Shown: piece by piece, positions 11,790 through 34,930 of the stretch
Numbering within the stretch: position 1 is the first letter of the stretch
Layout: each line of letters starts with the position of its first letter
Assembly: GCF_027923405.1 (NCBI RefSeq)
Contig: NZ_BQYI01000001.1
Coordinates: 1,900,501 to 1,964,500, forward strand
Origin: Paenibacillus sp. YYML68
GTDB taxonomy: Bacteria; Bacillota; Bacilli; Paenibacillales; NBRC-103111
DNA: 64,000 bases
Reading direction: 5' to 3'
Made by a program: the position numbers and the translations under genes
Notes under the pieces: model-generated
Databases searched by the model: none
What the model was told of the DNA's origin: nothing
The model's input: the letters and a program-made list of their open reading frames with translations, nothing else

Positions 11790-11975
11790 CAACAAGATCC
11801 TGCGATGTTCGTTTCGGTTTAAAGTTGTTTTGAACCAATGACTGTTTCACGGGAGACCTACATCGAATCGTTGCTGACATGCCCTCGAAAAGGGACTTCA
11901 AAACCGATTCTGCGGACACCCACCTGCGAGAGCGGGTTTGAAACACTAAACCGGACGGCATATGCGGGTTTTTTG
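11790..11975 (+). ncRNA. ssrS: 6S RNA
   Basis: A transcript of about 186 bases between its own promoter and a T-run. The 5' part 'CCTGCGATGTTCG' and 3' part 'CGGCATATGCGGG' carry the GAUGUUCG and CGGCAU elements seen at the two ends of known 6S RNAs. The ends pair: AACAA with TTGTT, CCTGC with GCGGG, CGGTTT with AAACCG. GTTTTGAA and TTCAAAAC pair further in, and a small CCC/GGG hairpin caps the middle. This gives the long closing stem and open central bubble by which 6S RNA binds sigma-A RNA polymerase. The gene upstream of transaldolase is only 42 bp away, so readthrough may reach tal. Confidence 0.85.
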
Positions 11976-25665: not shown

Positions 25666-25905
<240 letters not shown>

Positions 25906-26027: not shown

Positions 26028-27872
26028 ATGTTCAAGAAGGAATGGAGTAAGTCGAGCGTTGTCTTATTCGGGAATGCACTAATTATTATGATCTGCTTGC
26101 TACTGCTCGCATACGGCTCGTTACGCGTGTTGTCCAATCAGATCTATGACTGGAATCTGCAAGGCACGATGTCACAGCAGCCGCACGAGGACATCGTCGT
26201 CATCGGCATCGACGAGCGTTCGATCAAGGAGGTCGGTCCATATCCGTGGGATCGTACTGTATATGTGGATCTGATTCAGAAGCTGCAGCAGGGTGGAGCG
26301 AAGGTGATCGGCTTCGATATCGAGCTGTACACAGAGAGCTCGAAGCCAGAGAGCGACAGGCTGCTCGCTGCAGAGCTCGCGAAGCATGACAATATTATTT
26401 TGCCGTCTCACGCGCAGCTGGAGGGGCAGTTCAATCGCAGCACGACGGTGAAGGCGGGGCAGCTTATTCAGGCGCAAGGTGTACAGCAGCCGATTCCGCT
26501 CTTCAGGGAGCATGTGAAACGCGCCCACATTAATGCAGCGTTCGATATGGACGGCGTCATTCGCTCCAACTGGCTGCAGATTGAGACGCCGGAGGGCGTA
26601 TTCCCGTCCATGGGTCTTGCGATGGCGCAGCTCGCAGGGGCAGACGTCAGTCGCTTCCTAGAGCTTCCAGTCTTGAAGGATCGGCCTCGCTCGGAGCTGC
26701 TGCTGCGCTGGGATGCGAAGGAGTTCGACTTCGAGACGATTCCTTTTATCAACGTGGTGCAAGGGAAGGTGCCGGTATCGGCGTTCAAGGACAGACTTGT
26801 GCTGGTCGGCTATGTAGCTCCAGGCTCGGATGAAGGCATTACACCGGTAGAGAACCATATGCATCTGGTGTATGCGCATGCGACGATTTTGAACCAGATT
26901 CTGAAGGATCAAGTCATTACGAAGGCGCACCACCTTGTAGAGCTGGCATTAACGCTCATCGCTCTGGCGCTGGCGGCACTGCTGTCATGGCGAGTTCGTG
27001 CGACGACCGGGGCGCTGATGATGCTCGGCTTCACCGTTGCGCTGCTTGCTGGTCAATATGTGCTGTTCATGACGAGCCAGCAATATATGGATGTCGTGAA
27101 CGCCGTCGTGTGCGGCTTGCTCGCTTATCTCGGCAACCTGTCGATGAAGACGTACTTCGAGACGAAGCAGAAGCTGTACATAACGAAGCAGTTCGGTCGC
27201 TACATCTCGCCGGATCTTGTGAAGGAGATTGCGAGCAGCGAGCAGGAGATTAAGCTCGGCGGCATCAGCAAGGAGCTGACGGTGCTGTTCCTCGACGTAC
27301 GAGGCTTCACACCGCTGTCCGAGAGGCTGAAGCCGGAGGAGGTTGTCGACTTCCTCAACATGATGTTCGACTTGATTACGGAGCGGGCGCTTGCCAATCA
27401 CGGGACGATCGACAAATTTATCGGTGATGCCGCGATGATTCTGTTCAACGCTCCGCTGGACGTTCCGAATCACCCGTACTATGCCGTGAAGACGGCCTTT
27501 GAAATTCAAGCTGGCATGAAGAAGGTGCGGGAGGACGTGCTGGAGAAGTATGGAGTTACGATCAGCGTCGGTATCGGCATCAATACAGGAGACGTTGTCG
27601 TCGGCAATATCGGATCCTACTTGCGTGTCGACTACACGGCGATCGGGGATAACGTCAATACGGCGGCCCGGATCGAGTCCAACACGCAGCCGAACCAGAT
27701 TCTCGTGTCGGAAACGACGTATGAGCTGACGAAGGCGTACTTTGAATATAACTTTGCAGGTGAGAAGCTGATGAAGGGGAAGAGTGCACCGCTCAAGCTG
27801 TTTGAGGTGCTGGACGTCACGGGAGCTCCCGAAGCTGCTACGGAGAGAGTGTCTAAGGGGTTAGGTAAATAA
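26028..27872 (+). CDS. CHASE2-domain class III adenylate/guanylate cyclase
   Basis: A 614-residue membrane sensor. A first membrane helix (12-34) leads to an extracellular CHASE2 domain ('IVVIGIDERSIKEVGPYPW', 'VIGFDIELY', 'RLVLVGYVAPGSDEG'). Three membrane helices (about 302-375) and a cytoplasmic class III cyclase domain (about 410-590) follow. Metal-binding Asp residues are in 'LFLDVRGFTPLSER' and 'FIGDAAM', an adenine-type Lys precedes in 'TIDKFIGDA', and Asn/Arg transition-state residues lie in 'GDNVNTAARIES'. All catalytic residues look present. cAMP production is rare in Firmicutes. The next genes code for a FecR-like and an NHL surface protein, a pairing known for CHASE2 cyclases. Confidence 0.9.
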   Translation: MFKKEWSKSSVVLFGNALIIMICLLLLAYGSLRVLSNQIYDWNLQGTMSQQPHEDIVVIGIDERSIKEVGPYPWDRTVYVDLIQKLQQGGAKVIGFDIELYTESSKPESDRLLAAELAKHDNIILPSHAQLEGQFNRSTTVKAGQLIQAQGVQQPIPLFREHVKRAHINAAFDMDGVIRSNWLQIETPEGVFPSMGLAMAQLAGADVSRFLELPVLKDRPRSELLLRWDAKEFDFETIPFINVVQGKVPVSAFKDRLVLVGYVAPGSDEGITPVENHMHLVYAHATILNQILKDQVITKAHHLVELALTLIALALAALLSWRVRATTGALMMLGFTVALLAGQYVLFMTSQQYMDVVNAVVCGLLAYLGNLSMKTYFETKQKLYITKQFGRYISPDLVKEIASSEQEIKLGGISKELTVLFLDVRGFTPLSERLKPEEVVDFLNMMFDLITERALANHGTIDKFIGDAAMILFNAPLDVPNHPYYAVKTAFEIQAGMKKVREDVLEKYGVTISVGIGINTGDVVVGNIGSYLRVDYTAIGDNVNTAARIESNTQPNQILVSETTYELTKAYFEYNFAGEKLMKGKSAPLKLFEVLDVTGAPEAATERVSKGLGK

Positions 27873-27886
27873 TGTGAAACATCACA
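27873..27886. promoter_or_regulatory. TGTGA-N4-TCACA palindrome
   Basis: A perfect TGTGA...TCACA dyad with a 4-base centre directly after the cyclase stop. The half sites are those of the CRP/FNR superfamily, though CRP sites have a 6-base centre. It could equally be part of a weak terminator, since TTTTTT follows 11 bases later. Confidence 0.3.
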
Positions 27887-27913
27887 CATTTCGACTTTTT
27901 TCACCGATATTCA

Positions 27914-27942
27914 TTGTAAAATCTAGCTACCCCTATTAAAAT
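27914..27942 (+). promoter_or_regulatory. promoter of the FecR-NHL pair
   Basis: TTGTAA, 17 bp, TAAAAT, ending 60 bp before the FecR-domain gene. Confidence 0.6.
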
Positions 27943-28002
27943 GAAGGTACATTCAAGGCATGTCTAGTTCTTCATGCATAGAAGTCTGAGAGGAGTATGA
28001 AC

Positions 28003-30108
28003 GTGAGGAAGAAATCTCATCTACGTCGTAATCGGCGCGGTACGCTCGTCCGCTTACTCGTCACGGCAAGCTTGGTGTCTACGACGCTGTCCTCCCCAAT
28101 GGCGCTGCCTGCGCATGCGAGCTCCGTTCGTTCGGCGATCGTATCGGAGGTTACCGGAACGGTTACATATAAGAAATCTGGTGGCTCCAGATCCAATACC
28201 GTCTATCAAGACTTGACACTTAATGAGGGCGATTCGATCTCAACAGGCTCTGGTGCCTATGCTGTGCTGAAGATCGCCGATCGCGATGATCTCATTACGA
28301 TTGATCAGAACACGGAGGTATACATATCCGAGCTGGTGGAAATCGATGGCGCGAAGAAGTCGAAGCTGAAGATGTGGGCTGGCTCTCTGTGGAGCAAGGT
28401 GAAGTCACTCGTCGCAAGCTCCGATGAGGTCGAGGTGGCAACGCCGACTGCGGTCATGGGTGTTCGCGGCACGCACTTCTATACGTATGTCAATCCGTTG
28501 ACCGGCCAGGAGCTCATGCTCGTTGCCTCCGGGCGGGTACACGTCAATACGATTACAGCGACCGAGCTGATGGATACGCAAGGGGCGGTCATCTCGCCGT
28601 CGGAGTCGGGCAAATCGGTCATGGTGTACCCGGCGCAGCAAGTTACACTTGATAAAGGGCAAGAGGTACAAGATCTGAAGACGAAGGTAGAGTACGTCGA
28701 CATCAATGAGCTCGTATCTGTTGCATCGCCTGCGGTGCTAGGCAAAATTATTGAGAATGTGCCGGATATTCTGCAGGAGAACGAAAAAGTCAAGGAGCAG
28801 CTGAAGCAGAAGTTCGAGCAGGGTGCTCAGAAGCCGGATCCGAATGCGGCCTTGTTCATTCCAACTGATGAGGTGCTGAAGAAGATTCAGTCCAATATTG
28901 ATGCATTCTTGCCAAACGTGGCGAAGCAAGCGGTTGAGCAGAAAAAAGTAACGGAGCAGCAAATTCAAAATACGAATGCCAAAATTGCGGAAGCTCAAAA
29001 AAAGCTGGATCTGAACAATGTGCCAAAGCTCGATCCGAATGCAGGTAAAGATCCTGCGGCAGGGAAGCCGGTGAGCAAGCCGGCTGTCCAGGTCGGAGCG
29101 GGCAAGGAGGCCGAGGAGAACCGAAAGGCGGCTCCACAGCAAGCGATCGAGCAAGCGAAGGCGAGCACAACGAGCAAGGCCGCTGAGAATACGAAGGTAG
29201 AGACGAAGCTCGTTCAGACCGCCGAGCAGACGCTGTTGAACAGCTATACGGCATCGCAGCAGCAGCAATTCAATAAAGCGAAGACGGACAATACAGCGGC
29301 TAACCCGCAGCCTGTACAGGTGCCAAATTCCTCAGGCGGCGGAAGCAGCGGCGAGGTGCCGGCGAAGCCGGAGCTCGTCAGTACGGCGGTGACGAAGGCG
29401 CTAGTCAACCAAGAGGTCGAGCTGAAGCTGAAGGCAGCAGCAGGGACGACCGTTTCGGTCAAGAAGGCGGGCAGCACGGAGTCACCGCAGAGCGCAGCCG
29501 TTGTGGACGGAACAGCGACGATTAAGGTGAAGTTCAGCCAGCGCGGAACGTATACGTTGCACGCTTATACGACGAATAGCAACGGATCGAGCGAGTCGAT
29601 CAGCCTGCCAGCTATTCAAGTGTACGAGCCAGCGGTGAAGGCGGTGCAAGCCGGACCGAGAAGCGGCTCCGAGGTAAGGCTGCAGCTGGATATTCAAGAT
29701 ATCGTAGATGGCACCACCTTGAATGAAAAGTCGTTCTATGCAGTAGAGGTGCATTTGTTGTATGACAAGACGAAGCTGACCTACAATGGACCAAAAGCGC
29801 TGCCTGATAATGACGGCACGCTATTCGACGGAGCTAATGGTGCCGAGGTAGTGAGGCAGGATAGTGGTGCAACACAAAGCGAGCTTACCTACGCTGGGTC
29901 ACTCTTCCAGTCCTCGACTTCGAATCCAGCTAGTGAGATCAGTCTGAACGGTGCGAAGAAGACGCTTGCTTACATTCCGCTTACTGTGACGACGACGGAC
30001 CCTTCGGCGGAAGTGACTGTGGCCTATGTGAAGGTCTTAGATAAGGCAGGGGACATCCTATTTGAGTCCAGCAACAGTCAGAAGCTGACCGTCAGCTTGA
30101 CGAACTAG
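28003..30108 (+). CDS. secreted FecR-domain protein with C-terminal cohesin-like domain
   Basis: About 701 residues. A basic signal peptide ends near 'ALPAHASS'. The FecR domain follows (about 45-230: 'SEVTGTVTYKK', 'LNEGDSISTGSGAYAVLKI', 'VATPTAVMGVRGTHFYTYV'), then a long Lys/Gln/Ala-rich coiled linker (about 260-440), an Ig-like region and a cohesin-like module ('FYAVEVHLLYDKTKLTYNG' onward). It is probably a wall-associated scaffold rather than an iron regulator, as there is no sigma factor or TonB system. The GTG at 28003 lies 7 bp after AGGAG; the ATG two codons earlier is too close. It follows the CHASE2 cyclase and precedes an NHL protein 30 bp later. Confidence 0.82.
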   Translation: MRKKSHLRRNRRGTLVRLLVTASLVSTTLSSPMALPAHASSVRSAIVSEVTGTVTYKKSGGSRSNTVYQDLTLNEGDSISTGSGAYAVLKIADRDDLITIDQNTEVYISELVEIDGAKKSKLKMWAGSLWSKVKSLVASSDEVEVATPTAVMGVRGTHFYTYVNPLTGQELMLVASGRVHVNTITATELMDTQGAVISPSESGKSVMVYPAQQVTLDKGQEVQDLKTKVEYVDINELVSVASPAVLGKIIENVPDILQENEKVKEQLKQKFEQGAQKPDPNAALFIPTDEVLKKIQSNIDAFLPNVAKQAVEQKKVTEQQIQNTNAKIAEAQKKLDLNNVPKLDPNAGKDPAAGKPVSKPAVQVGAGKEAEENRKAAPQQAIEQAKASTTSKAAENTKVETKLVQTAEQTLLNSYTASQQQQFNKAKTDNTAANPQPVQVPNSSGGGSSGEVPAKPELVSTAVTKALVNQEVELKLKAAAGTTVSVKKAGSTESPQSAAVVDGTATIKVKFSQRGTYTLHAYTTNSNGSSESISLPAIQVYEPAVKAVQAGPRSGSEVRLQLDIQDIVDGTTLNEKSFYAVEVHLLYDKTKLTYNGPKALPDNDGTLFDGANGAEVVRQDSGATQSELTYAGSLFQSSTSNPASEISLNGAKKTLAYIPLTVTTTDPSAEVTVAYVKVLDKAGDILFESSNSQKLTVSLTN

Positions 30109-30138
30109 CGCATCCTGCAAGGTGAAGGAGAAACGAAT

Positions 30139-31740
30139 ATGAATAAAGTGTTACGAATCCTATTAGTCTCAGGGCTGGCAGCCGCTCTTGCTACAGGTGG
30201 CTCCGCCTCGGCGGCTTCCTTATTGGAGGGTGCGTTGCTCGGGGCGGATCAGAAGCCTCTGCTCACCGTCGATACCGCAGCTGGAACTGGACAACTCGGC
30301 AGCGCGAACGGCGCAGCCGCCTCGGCGACGTTCCGTATACCTGCCGGACTTGCGGTTAAGGCTGACGGGACTGTATATATCGCCGATTCCCGTAATCACG
30401 AGATACGCGCCATGAAGGATGGTAAGGTGGAGCTTGTCGCCGGTACGTTCTTCGATGTCGATGATAAGGGCTTCCCAGTGGGTGGTATGCTGGACGGTCA
30501 AGGGGAGCTAACCTTATTCACGAACCCTCACGGCATTTCGTTGGATAAAAATGGGAACTTGTACGTCGCTGACTCGGGTAATCATGCCATTCGCAAAATC
30601 GATGCATCCGGCAATGTGACGACGTTAGCGGGAGACGGAATTATCGGGCTCACGGATGATGTCGGCGGGAAGGCTCGCTTCTATCAGCCTCTGGATGTAG
30701 CTGTAGCCGATAATGGCACCGTCTATGTAGCGGATACGCTCAATCATGTCATTCGCCGCATTGCGACGAACGGCCAAGTGACGACGTTGAATGCGCCCTC
30801 TACTCGAGCGGTGGAAGTATCGCGTGGTCAGGCCGCTCCAGCGGGTGACTTCGCAGACGGCGAGCTGAAGAACGCGAAGTTCAACGAGCCGAGCGGTCTT
30901 GTCCTAGATGCGAAGGGCAACCTGTATGTGAGCGATTCGGGCAATCAGCGCATACGTTACATCGACCTGCAGCAGCAGACGGTAACGACGGTGGCAGGAG
31001 GCGGTCAAGCTTCCCGACTGACGGACTTGTATGTACCTGGCGAGTATGCAGACGGACCTGCTGCAGCGGCTCGCTTTCATTTTCCGATAGGGCTGGCCTT
31101 AACAGATAATGGCGGGATTGTCGTTGCGGATAGTCAGAATCACTCGATTCGTCTCATTGCGAACGGTCAAGTGACGACTGTTGCAGGTACAGCTAATCAG
31201 ACAACGATGGAGCATGACGGCGTAGACAGGCATACAGGCTTTCATCGTCCGGTAGATGTTGCCGTGCTGAAGGATGGCAGTCTGCTCGTCGCCGATGCCT
31301 TCAATAATAAGCTTCGACATGTACAGCCATTCAAGCTTCCAGCTAATCTACCACAAGATGATAGCGTGAAGGTCGTCTTGAACAACGACTGGATTACGTT
31401 CGATGCACAACCGGAAATTACGAACGGACGCACGATGGTGCCGGTTGGTGCAATCTCCGAGGCGCTAGGCTACAAGGTGACGTTCGATGATGCGACAAGA
31501 GCAATTCAGTTGATCAAGGACGATGTGACCATTGAATTGTACGTTGATCGCACGGGGATTAAGCGATTGGTTGAAGGCGAGCGTGCCGTCGAGAAGGAGA
31601 CGGACGCAGCTCCGTATATGAAGCAGGGCCGCACGTATGTGCCTGTTCGCTTCTTCGCTGAAGAGATCGGACTTGACGTGCAGTGGGATGGGAATTCCCG
31701 TACCGCTATTATTCGCACTAAGCTCCAAGACAATAATTAA
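30139..31740 (+). CDS. secreted NHL-repeat propeller with copper amine oxidase N-terminal-like domain
   Basis: A 533-residue exported protein (signal peptide ends near 'GGSASAAS'). At least five NHL-type repeats are visible from about residue 60 to 395, each with the 'G.LYVADSGNHAIRKI' pattern, forming a beta-propeller. The last 125 residues are a copper-amine-oxidase-N (PF07833) module ('VVLNNDWITFDAQPEITNGR', 'GRTYVPVRFFAEEIG'), common in Paenibacillus surface proteins and unrelated to oxidase activity. It probably binds carbohydrate or protein on the wall. It lies 30 bp after the FecR gene, so the two form an operon, closed by a strong terminator. Confidence 0.85.
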   Translation: MNKVLRILLVSGLAAALATGGSASAASLLEGALLGADQKPLLTVDTAAGTGQLGSANGAAASATFRIPAGLAVKADGTVYIADSRNHEIRAMKDGKVELVAGTFFDVDDKGFPVGGMLDGQGELTLFTNPHGISLDKNGNLYVADSGNHAIRKIDASGNVTTLAGDGIIGLTDDVGGKARFYQPLDVAVADNGTVYVADTLNHVIRRIATNGQVTTLNAPSTRAVEVSRGQAAPAGDFADGELKNAKFNEPSGLVLDAKGNLYVSDSGNQRIRYIDLQQQTVTTVAGGGQASRLTDLYVPGEYADGPAAAARFHFPIGLALTDNGGIVVADSQNHSIRLIANGQVTTVAGTANQTTMEHDGVDRHTGFHRPVDVAVLKDGSLLVADAFNNKLRHVQPFKLPANLPQDDSVKVVLNNDWITFDAQPEITNGRTMVPVGAISEALGYKVTFDDATRAIQLIKDDVTIELYVDRTGIKRLVEGERAVEKETDAAPYMKQGRTYVPVRFFAEEIGLDVQWDGNSRTAIIRTKLQDNN

Positions 31741-31758
31741 TCTCGATGTGGGCAGGAA

Positions 31759-31820
31759 AAGACTTATCCGATGGAGAAATGTATTTTAACATTCTTCATG
31801 AATCGGATCAGTCTTTTTTT
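31759..31820 (+). terminator. terminator of the FecR-NHL operon
   Basis: AAGACTTATCCGAT and ATCGGATCAGTCTT pair over 14 positions with one mismatch around a 29-base loop, then a run of T. Confidence 0.85.
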
Positions 31821-31878
31821 CGACCTAGTGCCTTGCTCGGTTCATTATATCGTTCATCGGTGGGGGGAGGGGATTATC

Positions 31879-32616
31879 ATGTCTATTGAGAACGACAAGC
31901 TGCTCGAGCGAATTGAACAGCTGGAGAAACGTAATCGAGAGCTGGAGCTGCTGCTTGCTTCTGCTTCTGTGCTGAGCCGCACGGATCTTGTTCAGGAGGA
32001 GCCGTTCTCGGTCAGTCTGATCCAATCACTCGTGCTGGCGCTTGATTCACGGGATCCGTATACGGCCGGTCATTCCTCGCGGGTAGCGCTATATTCGCTA
32101 TGGATTGCTCGCAAGCTAGGCATGTCGGAGGAAGAGTGCCGTCAGTTCCATCGAGCTGCCTTAATGCACGACATTGGCAAGATCGGGGTGCCAGACCGTG
32201 TGCTGCTGAAGGAGGAGAGCTTGACCGACGAGGAGTTCCAGGTCATGATCTCCCATACGACGATCGGCGCGCGCATCTTATCGAAGCTGGAGCCGGAGTC
32301 GAGGATGGTGCAGGCGACGGAGGTCGCGAAGTACCATCATGAGAAGATGGACGGCTCGGGCTATCCGGAAGGGCTACTGGGCGAGGCGATTCCGTTCTTC
32401 GCGCGCATCGCTGCGGTAGCGGATGCATTCGATGCGATGACGACGGATCGGCCTTATGCGAAGGGGCGAAGCTATGCGGACGGGGTGAAGGAAATCATTC
32501 GGTGCCGGGGCACGCACTTCGATCCGGTCGTGGTCGATGCGTTCGAAGCGGTGATGCGCGAACGGCTCGGGCGTGAGTTCGATCGTTATGTGATGAAGCA
32601 TGGTGATCTGGTGTAA
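31879..32616 (+). CDS. HD-GYP domain c-di-GMP phosphodiesterase
   Basis: A 245-residue cytoplasmic protein. A short coiled-coil (residues 5-28) precedes an HD-GYP domain: 'AGHSSRVALYS', 'ALMHDIGKIGVPD', 'KYHHEKMDGSGYPEGL' and 'ADAFDAMTTDRPY' carry the metal ligands and the HHExxDGxGYP motif of active enzymes, which linearise cyclic di-GMP. There is no sensor or receiver domain. The ATG at 31879 follows GGGGAGGGG; a longer frame begins inside the upstream terminator. It sits next to a cyclase block, and a diguanylate cyclase lies 30 kb away at 61.5 kb. Confidence 0.9.
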   Translation: MSIENDKLLERIEQLEKRNRELELLLASASVLSRTDLVQEEPFSVSLIQSLVLALDSRDPYTAGHSSRVALYSLWIARKLGMSEEECRQFHRAALMHDIGKIGVPDRVLLKEESLTDEEFQVMISHTTIGARILSKLEPESRMVQATEVAKYHHEKMDGSGYPEGLLGEAIPFFARIAAVADAFDAMTTDRPYAKGRSYADGVKEIIRCRGTHFDPVVVDAFEAVMRERLGREFDRYVMKHGDLV

Positions 32617-34132: not shown

Positions 34133-34930
34133 ATGGATGGTCGTGACTGGAAGAAGTTTCTCATCCCATACGAGCAAGCGGTAGAGGAGCTGAAGGTAAA
34201 GTTCAAGACGCTCCGCTCGGAGCTGAAGACGCGGGAGCAATATTCGCCGATTGAATTCGTTACCGGACGCGTGAAGCGAATTTCCAGCATATTGGAGAAG
34301 GCGAAGCGGTTAAGCGTGCCGATGGAGCAGCTCGAAACAGGCATTGAGGATATTGCCGGCATCCGCATTATGTGCCAATTCGTGGAGGACATCGAGCGTC
34401 TGGCCGAAATTATTCGTGCGCGCGAGGATATGACCGTGCTGTACGTGAAGGATTATATTAATAATAAGAAGCCGAGCGGGTATCGCAGCTACCATATTAT
34501 CGTCGAATTCCCTGTGCAGACGGCGCTTGGCATGAAGCGGGTACTTGCGGAGATTCAGCTGCGGACGCTGGCTATGAATTTCTGGGCAACGATTGAGCAT
34601 TCATTGAATTATAAATATCGTCAGAGCTTGCCGGAAGAAGTCGTCAACCGGTTAAGCAAGGCAGCGGAGGCGGCCTATCTGCTCGATCAAGAGATGAGCA
34701 GCATTCGCCATGAGATTATGGAGGCGCAGGAGCTGTTCGAGGATATGTCGAACATCGTGAACAAGCTCATGGACGGCATTCAGCAGCTCTACTTCTACCA
34801 TCGCGTGCGCGAGGCGGCGCACTTCCAGCTTCGCTTCAACGAGCTGTGGGATTCGAACGATGTATGGCTGCTGAAGGAGCTGTCCAATCAGGTTGACGAG
34901 GCGATCAGCCGGGCGAAAAAAAGTACGTAG
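34133..34930 (+). CDS. relQ: small alarmone synthetase (RelQ/YjbM-like)
   Basis: Makes (p)ppGpp by transferring pyrophosphate from ATP to GDP or GTP. A 265-residue single-domain RelA/SpoT synthetase: 'IEDIAGIRIMCQFVEDI', 'NNKKPSGYRSYHIIVE' and 'EIQLRTLAMNFWATIEH' carry the substrate-binding residues. There is no hydrolase or TGS domain. It is longer than Bacillus YjbM (about 210 aa), the extra being C-terminal helix. GGGAGG supports the ATG. It is in the same direction as pyrD, 18 bp away, linking nucleotide synthesis with stringent control. Confidence 0.9.
   Translation: MDGRDWKKFLIPYEQAVEELKVKFKTLRSELKTREQYSPIEFVTGRVKRISSILEKAKRLSVPMEQLETGIEDIAGIRIMCQFVEDIERLAEIIRAREDMTVLYVKDYINNKKPSGYRSYHIIVEFPVQTALGMKRVLAEIQLRTLAMNFWATIEHSLNYKYRQSLPEEVVNRLSKAAEAAYLLDQEMSSIRHEIMEAQELFEDMSNIVNKLMDGIQQLYFYHRVREAAHFQLRFNELWDSNDVWLLKELSNQVDEAISRAKKST

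Follow-up and report, generated by a model that had tools for sequence, protein, structure and literature searches.

FecR domains are normally taught as regulators of iron or of sigma factors, and cAMP signalling in Gram-positive bacteria is usually thought to be marginal. CHASE2 is a widespread sensor domain, the ligand of which was given as unknown in a 2016 paper (PMC5192318). The neighbourhood of FecR and CHASE2 has been published piecemeal, for Burkholderiales, Campylobacterota and Sinorhizobium. Burkholderia contaminans and its relatives have a biofilm-regulating operon in which a CHASE2 histidine kinase is encoded together with a LysM-FecR protein (PMC5192318). For Campylobacterota, a cluster of CHASE2 adenylate cyclase, FecR, phosphodiesterase and TPR genes was described, from which the authors infer one pathway (PMC9239204). 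In Sinorhizobium meliloti, the cyclase CyaD1 makes cAMP constitutively when CHASE2 is missing (PMC5498481), so that the ectodomain apparently keeps the enzyme in check. SMc02177, the FecR gene in its neighbourhood, is induced via the cascade and required for the same infection phenotype, and as tested it was dispensable for the perception of the plant signal (PMC5498481). No other genetic study of a CHASE2 cyclase with FecR came up in our literature search. We were not able to find FecR-CHASE2 in Bacillota, or as a general rule, in open-licence papers; novelty is not proven by this, and it is the general link between the two domains that we consider the valuable part.

The locus described here lies in a window of 64,000 nucleotides from Paenibacillus sp. 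YYML68, and coordinates refer to this stretch. Between positions 26028 and 32616 there are four ORFs, all in the same direction (+). A first-pass annotation of the sequence had listed these four genes with their domains, and the ORFs and the Pfam scan find them at this very place. The features are as follows:

26028..27872, + strand: CHASE2 and class III nucleotidyl cyclase protein, 614 aa (Pfam)
27871..27890, + strand: CRP-type palindrome AATGTGAAACATCACACATT, a possible operator between the cyclase gene and fecR (consensus match)
27914..27942, + strand: sigma-70-like promoter TTGTAA-17-TAAAAT before fecR (consensus scan, 9/12; weak evidence)
27997..30108, + strand: exported FecR-domain protein, 703 aa (Pfam FecR, 40.3 bits)
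30139..31740, + strand: exported NHL-repeat propeller with C-terminal Cu_amine_oxidN1, 533 aa (Pfam)
about 31757..31820, + strand: intrinsic-terminator hairpin and U run between the NHL and HD-GYP genes (folding energy compared with shuffles)
31879..32616, + strand: HD-GYP domain protein, a separate neighbour, 245 aa (HD_5, 133.9 bits)

We call the first three genes (cyclase, FecR and NHL) the triad. It is flanked by cimA, dinB and a ferredoxin gene upstream and by pyrD and relQ downstream, and this order is kept in most relatives. The small ferredoxin-like gene directly upstream of the cyclase gene (25669-25905) has 82-99% identity in relatives. Shortly downstream, 34133-34930 encodes a small protein with a (p)ppGpp synthetase domain of the RelA/SpoT type (PF04607), again with its order kept in relatives. 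Further away, the window contains a 6S RNA gene (11794-11974; Rfam RF00013, 94.8 bits).

The locus shares with the Campylobacterota cluster a CHASE2 cyclase that is encoded with a FecR-domain envelope protein. However, that cluster has an outer-membrane FecR, a TPR protein and a cAMP phosphodiesterase, whereas here we see an NHL-CuN protein and a cohesin-like domain, and no cAMP phosphodiesterase. A CHASE2-type receptor cyclase, a FecR gene and a CRP-family regulator are common to our genome and to the S. meliloti CyaD1-SMc02177-Clr system. There the CRP gene (Clr) is adjacent, the FecR gene is under cAMP control and no NHL protein has been reported; here the CRP gene is unlinked and the NHL protein is a member of the triad. 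The B. contaminans operon also has a CHASE2 receptor adjoining an exported FecR-domain protein, but with a histidine kinase output, a response regulator and a FecR-LysM protein instead of a cyclase and a FecR protein with Ig-like and cohesin-like domains.

The cyclase consists of a CHASE2 domain (PF05226, 162 bits, E = 2.7e-47, about residues 21-317) and a class III domain at residues 415-586 (Guanylate_cyc, 99 bits, E = 3.3e-28). There are hydrophobic segments at residues 6-37, 300-325 and 328-349, that is, one at the N-terminus and at least two further along, and together with the Pfam match they place the CHASE2 ectodomain between membrane segments. The catalytic site, which had been called intact, does contain all six of the expected residues (D423, K463, D467, T537, N544 and R548). 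In an alignment of 33 cyclases all but one retain them (32 of 33), the exception being a cyclase that is split over two frames. The Lys/Thr pair we take to be the substrate residues of the adenylate type, and judging by the site the enzyme should make cAMP. By sequence, the nearest solved structures are a bacteriophytochrome-adenylate cyclase fusion, the adenylate cyclase 2w01 and CyaB 3r5g. The genome has only one CHASE2 gene, and likewise only one FecR gene.

The FecR protein starts with a signal peptide (read by eye), followed by the FecR domain (PF04773, E = 4.4e-10, over the cut-off, about residues 79-181), a helical linker, an Ig/PKD-like domain (about 470-545) and a cohesin-like C-terminus (about 545-703). 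The cohesin-like module of the first-pass annotation has support at the level of the fold, but not from a sequence profile. With a cohesin profile the protein had no score, and one of eight relatives reached E = 0.053. On the other hand, the top 11 PDB matches of an AlphaFold2 model of residues 545-703 were all cohesins (best E = 1.7e-4; pLDDT 53, which is low). Modelling the whole protein from one sequence gave a pLDDT of 40 and was unusable. According to the model of the separate domain, the C-terminus probably has a cohesin fold.

Dockerins exist among the other proteins of the genomes, but two genomes with FecR have none and one genome without FecR has them, and because of this mismatch we do not claim a cohesin-dockerin pairing. 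In L062 (12403-14529), a locus on the same contig as the P. koleovorans record L109, the FecR and NHL genes have between them a gene for an exported protein of 708 aa with a C-terminal dockerin-like motif, DFNQDGTANAEDYKYL (Pfam E = 0.085), where the window FecR protein has a cohesin-like domain. Agarase-type or porphyranase-type proteins with both cohesin and dockerin are encoded elsewhere in the window genome (L196, C1:3635500-3645500, and L198, C1:3604500-3609500). They adjoin an SLH-cohesin protein that could act as a surface anchor, and going by their domains these genes possibly form a cellulosome-like system for red-algal polysaccharides.

An anti-sigma N-terminus was absent from the FecR protein in the Pfam scan, the signal peptide standing in its place, and there was no sigma factor among the fecR neighbours that were scanned or identified by homology (dinB, ferredoxin, cimA, pyrD and relQ). 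The FecR domain is what the locus has in common with FecI/FecR/FecA iron signalling. In contrast to that system, we see no sigma factor or TonB receptor and no cytoplasmic anti-sigma part, and the FecR domain is found in an exported protein.

The NHL protein matches Pfam NHL in 6 stretches (153 bits, E = 4.6e-46) and ends in a Cu_amine_oxidN1 domain (103.3 bits, E = 8.8e-30) that the first-pass annotation did not mention.

Next, we asked how the locus is conserved in 61 genomes: that of the window and 60 others from the same genus, family and order. The cyclase, a PF04773 FecR protein and a full-length NHL orthologue occur in an identical set of genomes: 33 have all three and 28 have none, two of the latter being from the window's own genus. 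As genomes of the same genus are not independent, the identity of the sets weighs more than any single p-value. The conserved unit is the cyclase, FecR and NHL, that is, three genes and not four. A lack of joint conservation had been named as a result that would speak against the earlier interpretation; the triad, with the same presence and absence of all three genes, withstands this check, and the interpretation is supported in part, namely for a functional tie between the intact sensor cyclase and the two exported proteins.

The arrangement of the triad varies. It is divergent in one relative (L053), in which the genes are together in differing surroundings, and NHL is ahead of FecR in another (L056). 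In G057 the cyclase is relocated while FecR and NHL are in the original place, and all three are retained. An NHL gene that appeared unlinked in G036 is so only apparently, as a contig break falls inside fecR. In one further locus (L054, in G041) a single CHASE2-cyclase and NHL gene are accompanied by three FecR-domain genes around them.

The conserved flanking order would also be seen if the triad were located in a stable stretch of the chromosome and co-inherited without joint function. We consider this highly improbable. The three genes are lost together and specifically, and not one of the 61 genomes has lost a single triad gene alone; moreover, the triad is intact in the differing surroundings of L053 and co-retained when unlinked in G057, and CHASE2 and FecR are found as a pair again in other phyla, with unrelated genes around them. 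The identical presence and absence, kept despite a change of order or a relocation of the cyclase, counts for a functional module.

We also compared evolutionary distances. With all cyclases included there was no rate co-evolution of CHASE2 and FecR (partial r = -0.05), because in P. koleovorans this slot is occupied by a displaced cyclase of 33% identity. When the two displaced cyclases are left out, the distance correlation is 0.56 after removal of the cimA/dinB background; as they were dropped after the first result had been seen, we treat this correlation as weak, and it gives the module mild extra support that depends on their omission. The cyclases that L062 and L063 have in this slot are just 31-33% identical to the others, with the similarity of cimA, dinB, FecR and NHL as expected, and by this comparison it looks as if the cyclase has been swapped in place for a distant relative.

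The HD-GYP gene does not belong to the conserved unit. Its product (HD_5, E = 6.4e-39) has the motifs HDIGK and KYHHEKMDGSGYP, in agreement with the HD and HHExxDGxGYP motifs; the start is more likely at 31879, with a ribosome-binding site there and homologues of 248-267 aa. As the four genes run in one direction, they could be an operon that joins cAMP and c-di-GMP, with HD-GYP lowering c-di-GMP on the same surface signal. However, the gene is found at this position in only 4 of the 33 triad genomes (3 of the 32 relatives), and in many other relatives the place is taken by a gene of about 480 aa, the one that was tested (L036) coding for a TPR/L,D-transpeptidase protein. In addition, the strong hairpin at 31757-31820 (-30.6 kcal/mol, z = -3.7 against shuffles) and its U run, which separate NHL from HD-GYP, would very probably end the triad transcript ahead of HD-GYP. 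Occurrence and terminator exclude HD-GYP as a core member. Of the "one block" of four genes suggested earlier, the co-conserved cyclase, FecR and NHL are what remains.

HD-GYP genes are also found close to CHASE2-cyclases in other loci of Bacillota and related genomes (L078, L086, L088, L106, L108, L110 and L156), FecR being absent from four of these (L088, L106, L108 and L110), and in L074 an HD-GYP gene adjoins the CHASE2-cyclase. This recurrence makes a c-di-GMP link possible in those lineages, but over all loci the density of HD-GYP near CHASE2 is only some 2 to 3 times that at a greater distance. In the window, it is the position of the HD-GYP gene, and nothing else, that points to such a link, and we find the four-gene operon improbable.

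The relation between FecR and CHASE2 extends beyond the Paenibacillales. Of 249 evenly sampled Bacillota genomes, 31 have CHASE2, 30 have FecR and 26 have both (Fisher p = 3.3e-26). CHASE2 is thus uncommon in this phylum, but not rare as had been assumed. FecR lies within 2 kb of CHASE2 in 17 of the 22 Bacillota loci with enough flank. A cyclase domain is present in nearly all of the Bacillota CHASE2 proteins and is not seen in one ORF, which lies close to the end of a contig. Of the four Bacillota genomes that have FecR without any CHASE2 match, three are those with the FecR-domain proteins L101, L102 and L103. A FecR gene without a sigma factor had been called unusual; no sigma factor is seen beside ours, but this appears to be the norm in Bacillota, since FecR there goes with CHASE2.

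To cover other phyla, we scanned a collection of genome contigs with a CHASE2 alignment of five sequences (one of 22 was too heterogeneous) and searched for FecR neighbours in all six frames. Of the 80 CHASE2 loci from many phyla, 47 had enough flank after leaving out repeats of the Bacillota sample, and 37 of these had FecR within 2 kb, a percentage that is no rate for bacteria, as Stenotrophomonas and other Proteobacteria make up much of the sample. Pooling Bacillota and the other phyla, we count 67 FecR matches in 371 kb near CHASE2 and 2 in 569 kb further out. Fusion proteins of FecR and CHASE2 were found in none of 110 loci. Several CHASE2 loci have no FecR, above all those with cyclases (7 of the 12 testable loci in the contig collection).

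The CHASE2 proteins that are paired with FecR differ in their output: the majority are histidine kinases, and besides class III cyclases there are GGDEF proteins (L122 and L180) and a Ser/Thr kinase (L184). As judged from these domain combinations, FecR tracks the extracellular sensor CHASE2 and not the output domain.

We propose that the triad is a three-protein envelope-sensing module of a CHASE2 cyclase, an exported FecR protein and an NHL protein, with cAMP read by CRP, a proposal to which we give even chances. It draws on the domains, the active-site residues, co-inheritance, adjacency, the output-independent pairing and CRP genes in equivalent operons. We infer that the exported FecR protein works in physical contact with the CHASE2 ectodomain of the membrane cyclase, and that in Paenibacillales the exported NHL propeller joins them as a third component. 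The state of FecR, NHL and CHASE2 outside the membrane would set cAMP synthesis inside. A CRP-family regulator encoded elsewhere in the genome would then read the cAMP, and the fecR-nhl transcript may itself be under the control of this regulator. HD-GYP would stay outside the module, as a separate neighbour.

The CRP side can be followed in several genomes. In all 11 tested Bacillota loci outside Paenibacillales, the gene after FecR is a CRP-family regulator; in one of them (L091) the CRP gene is directly 3' of the cyclase, with FecR at a distant position of the genome. A CRP homologue of the window genome (L065) is unlinked to the triad and keeps the cAMP-contact residues of E. coli CRP. The start of fecR is 124 bases past the cyclase gene. 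With at most 1 mismatch allowed, the palindrome at 27871-27890 is the sole match to AATGTGA-N6-TCACATT in the entire genome of 5.09 Mb, a reversed control giving 0; as the pattern was chosen after the site had been seen, this uniqueness is suggestive only. We did not find the site as a conserved element in 32 relatives, and hence keep the operator as a feature of the window genome only. Matches to sigma-70-like promoters in the region are no more numerous than expected by chance in a consensus scan.

The same observations can be read differently: the cyclase may sense alone, and cAMP-CRP may induce both FecR and NHL as outputs which alter the cell surface, that is, adhesion, matrix or wall. 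The CRP-type site directly ahead of fecR and the CRP genes in equivalent operons agree with this, as do the large, domain-rich C-terminal parts of FecR proteins (e.g. CBM_X2, Big_5 or cohesin-like). The S. meliloti FecR gene, induced via the cyclases and Clr and not needed to perceive the signal (PMC5498481), is the main evidence for FecR as an output and against FecR as a partner. However, FecR also accompanies CHASE2 histidine kinases, GGDEF proteins and protein kinases, where cAMP-CRP would not provide the link, and this output-independent pairing is the main evidence for the partner role. The CRP-type site is not conserved, and both roles can coexist as a feedback loop. On balance, we hold it to be rather unlikely that FecR and NHL are outputs only.

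Returning to FecR as a partner of CHASE2, we suggest, more tentatively than the module itself, that exported FecR proteins are dedicated co-receptors or regulators of CHASE2 throughout bacteria, with any output, and that NHL is a third component in Paenibacillales. The pairing, phylum-wide, across phyla and independent of output, makes FecR a concrete candidate partner for CHASE2. It would reassign most Bacillota FecR domains and points to a pathway of the cAMP-CRP type in Gram-positive bacteria. If the co-receptor reading is true, most FecR proteins of Bacillota would be parts of a cyclic-nucleotide envelope sensor, and not of iron or sigma-factor control.
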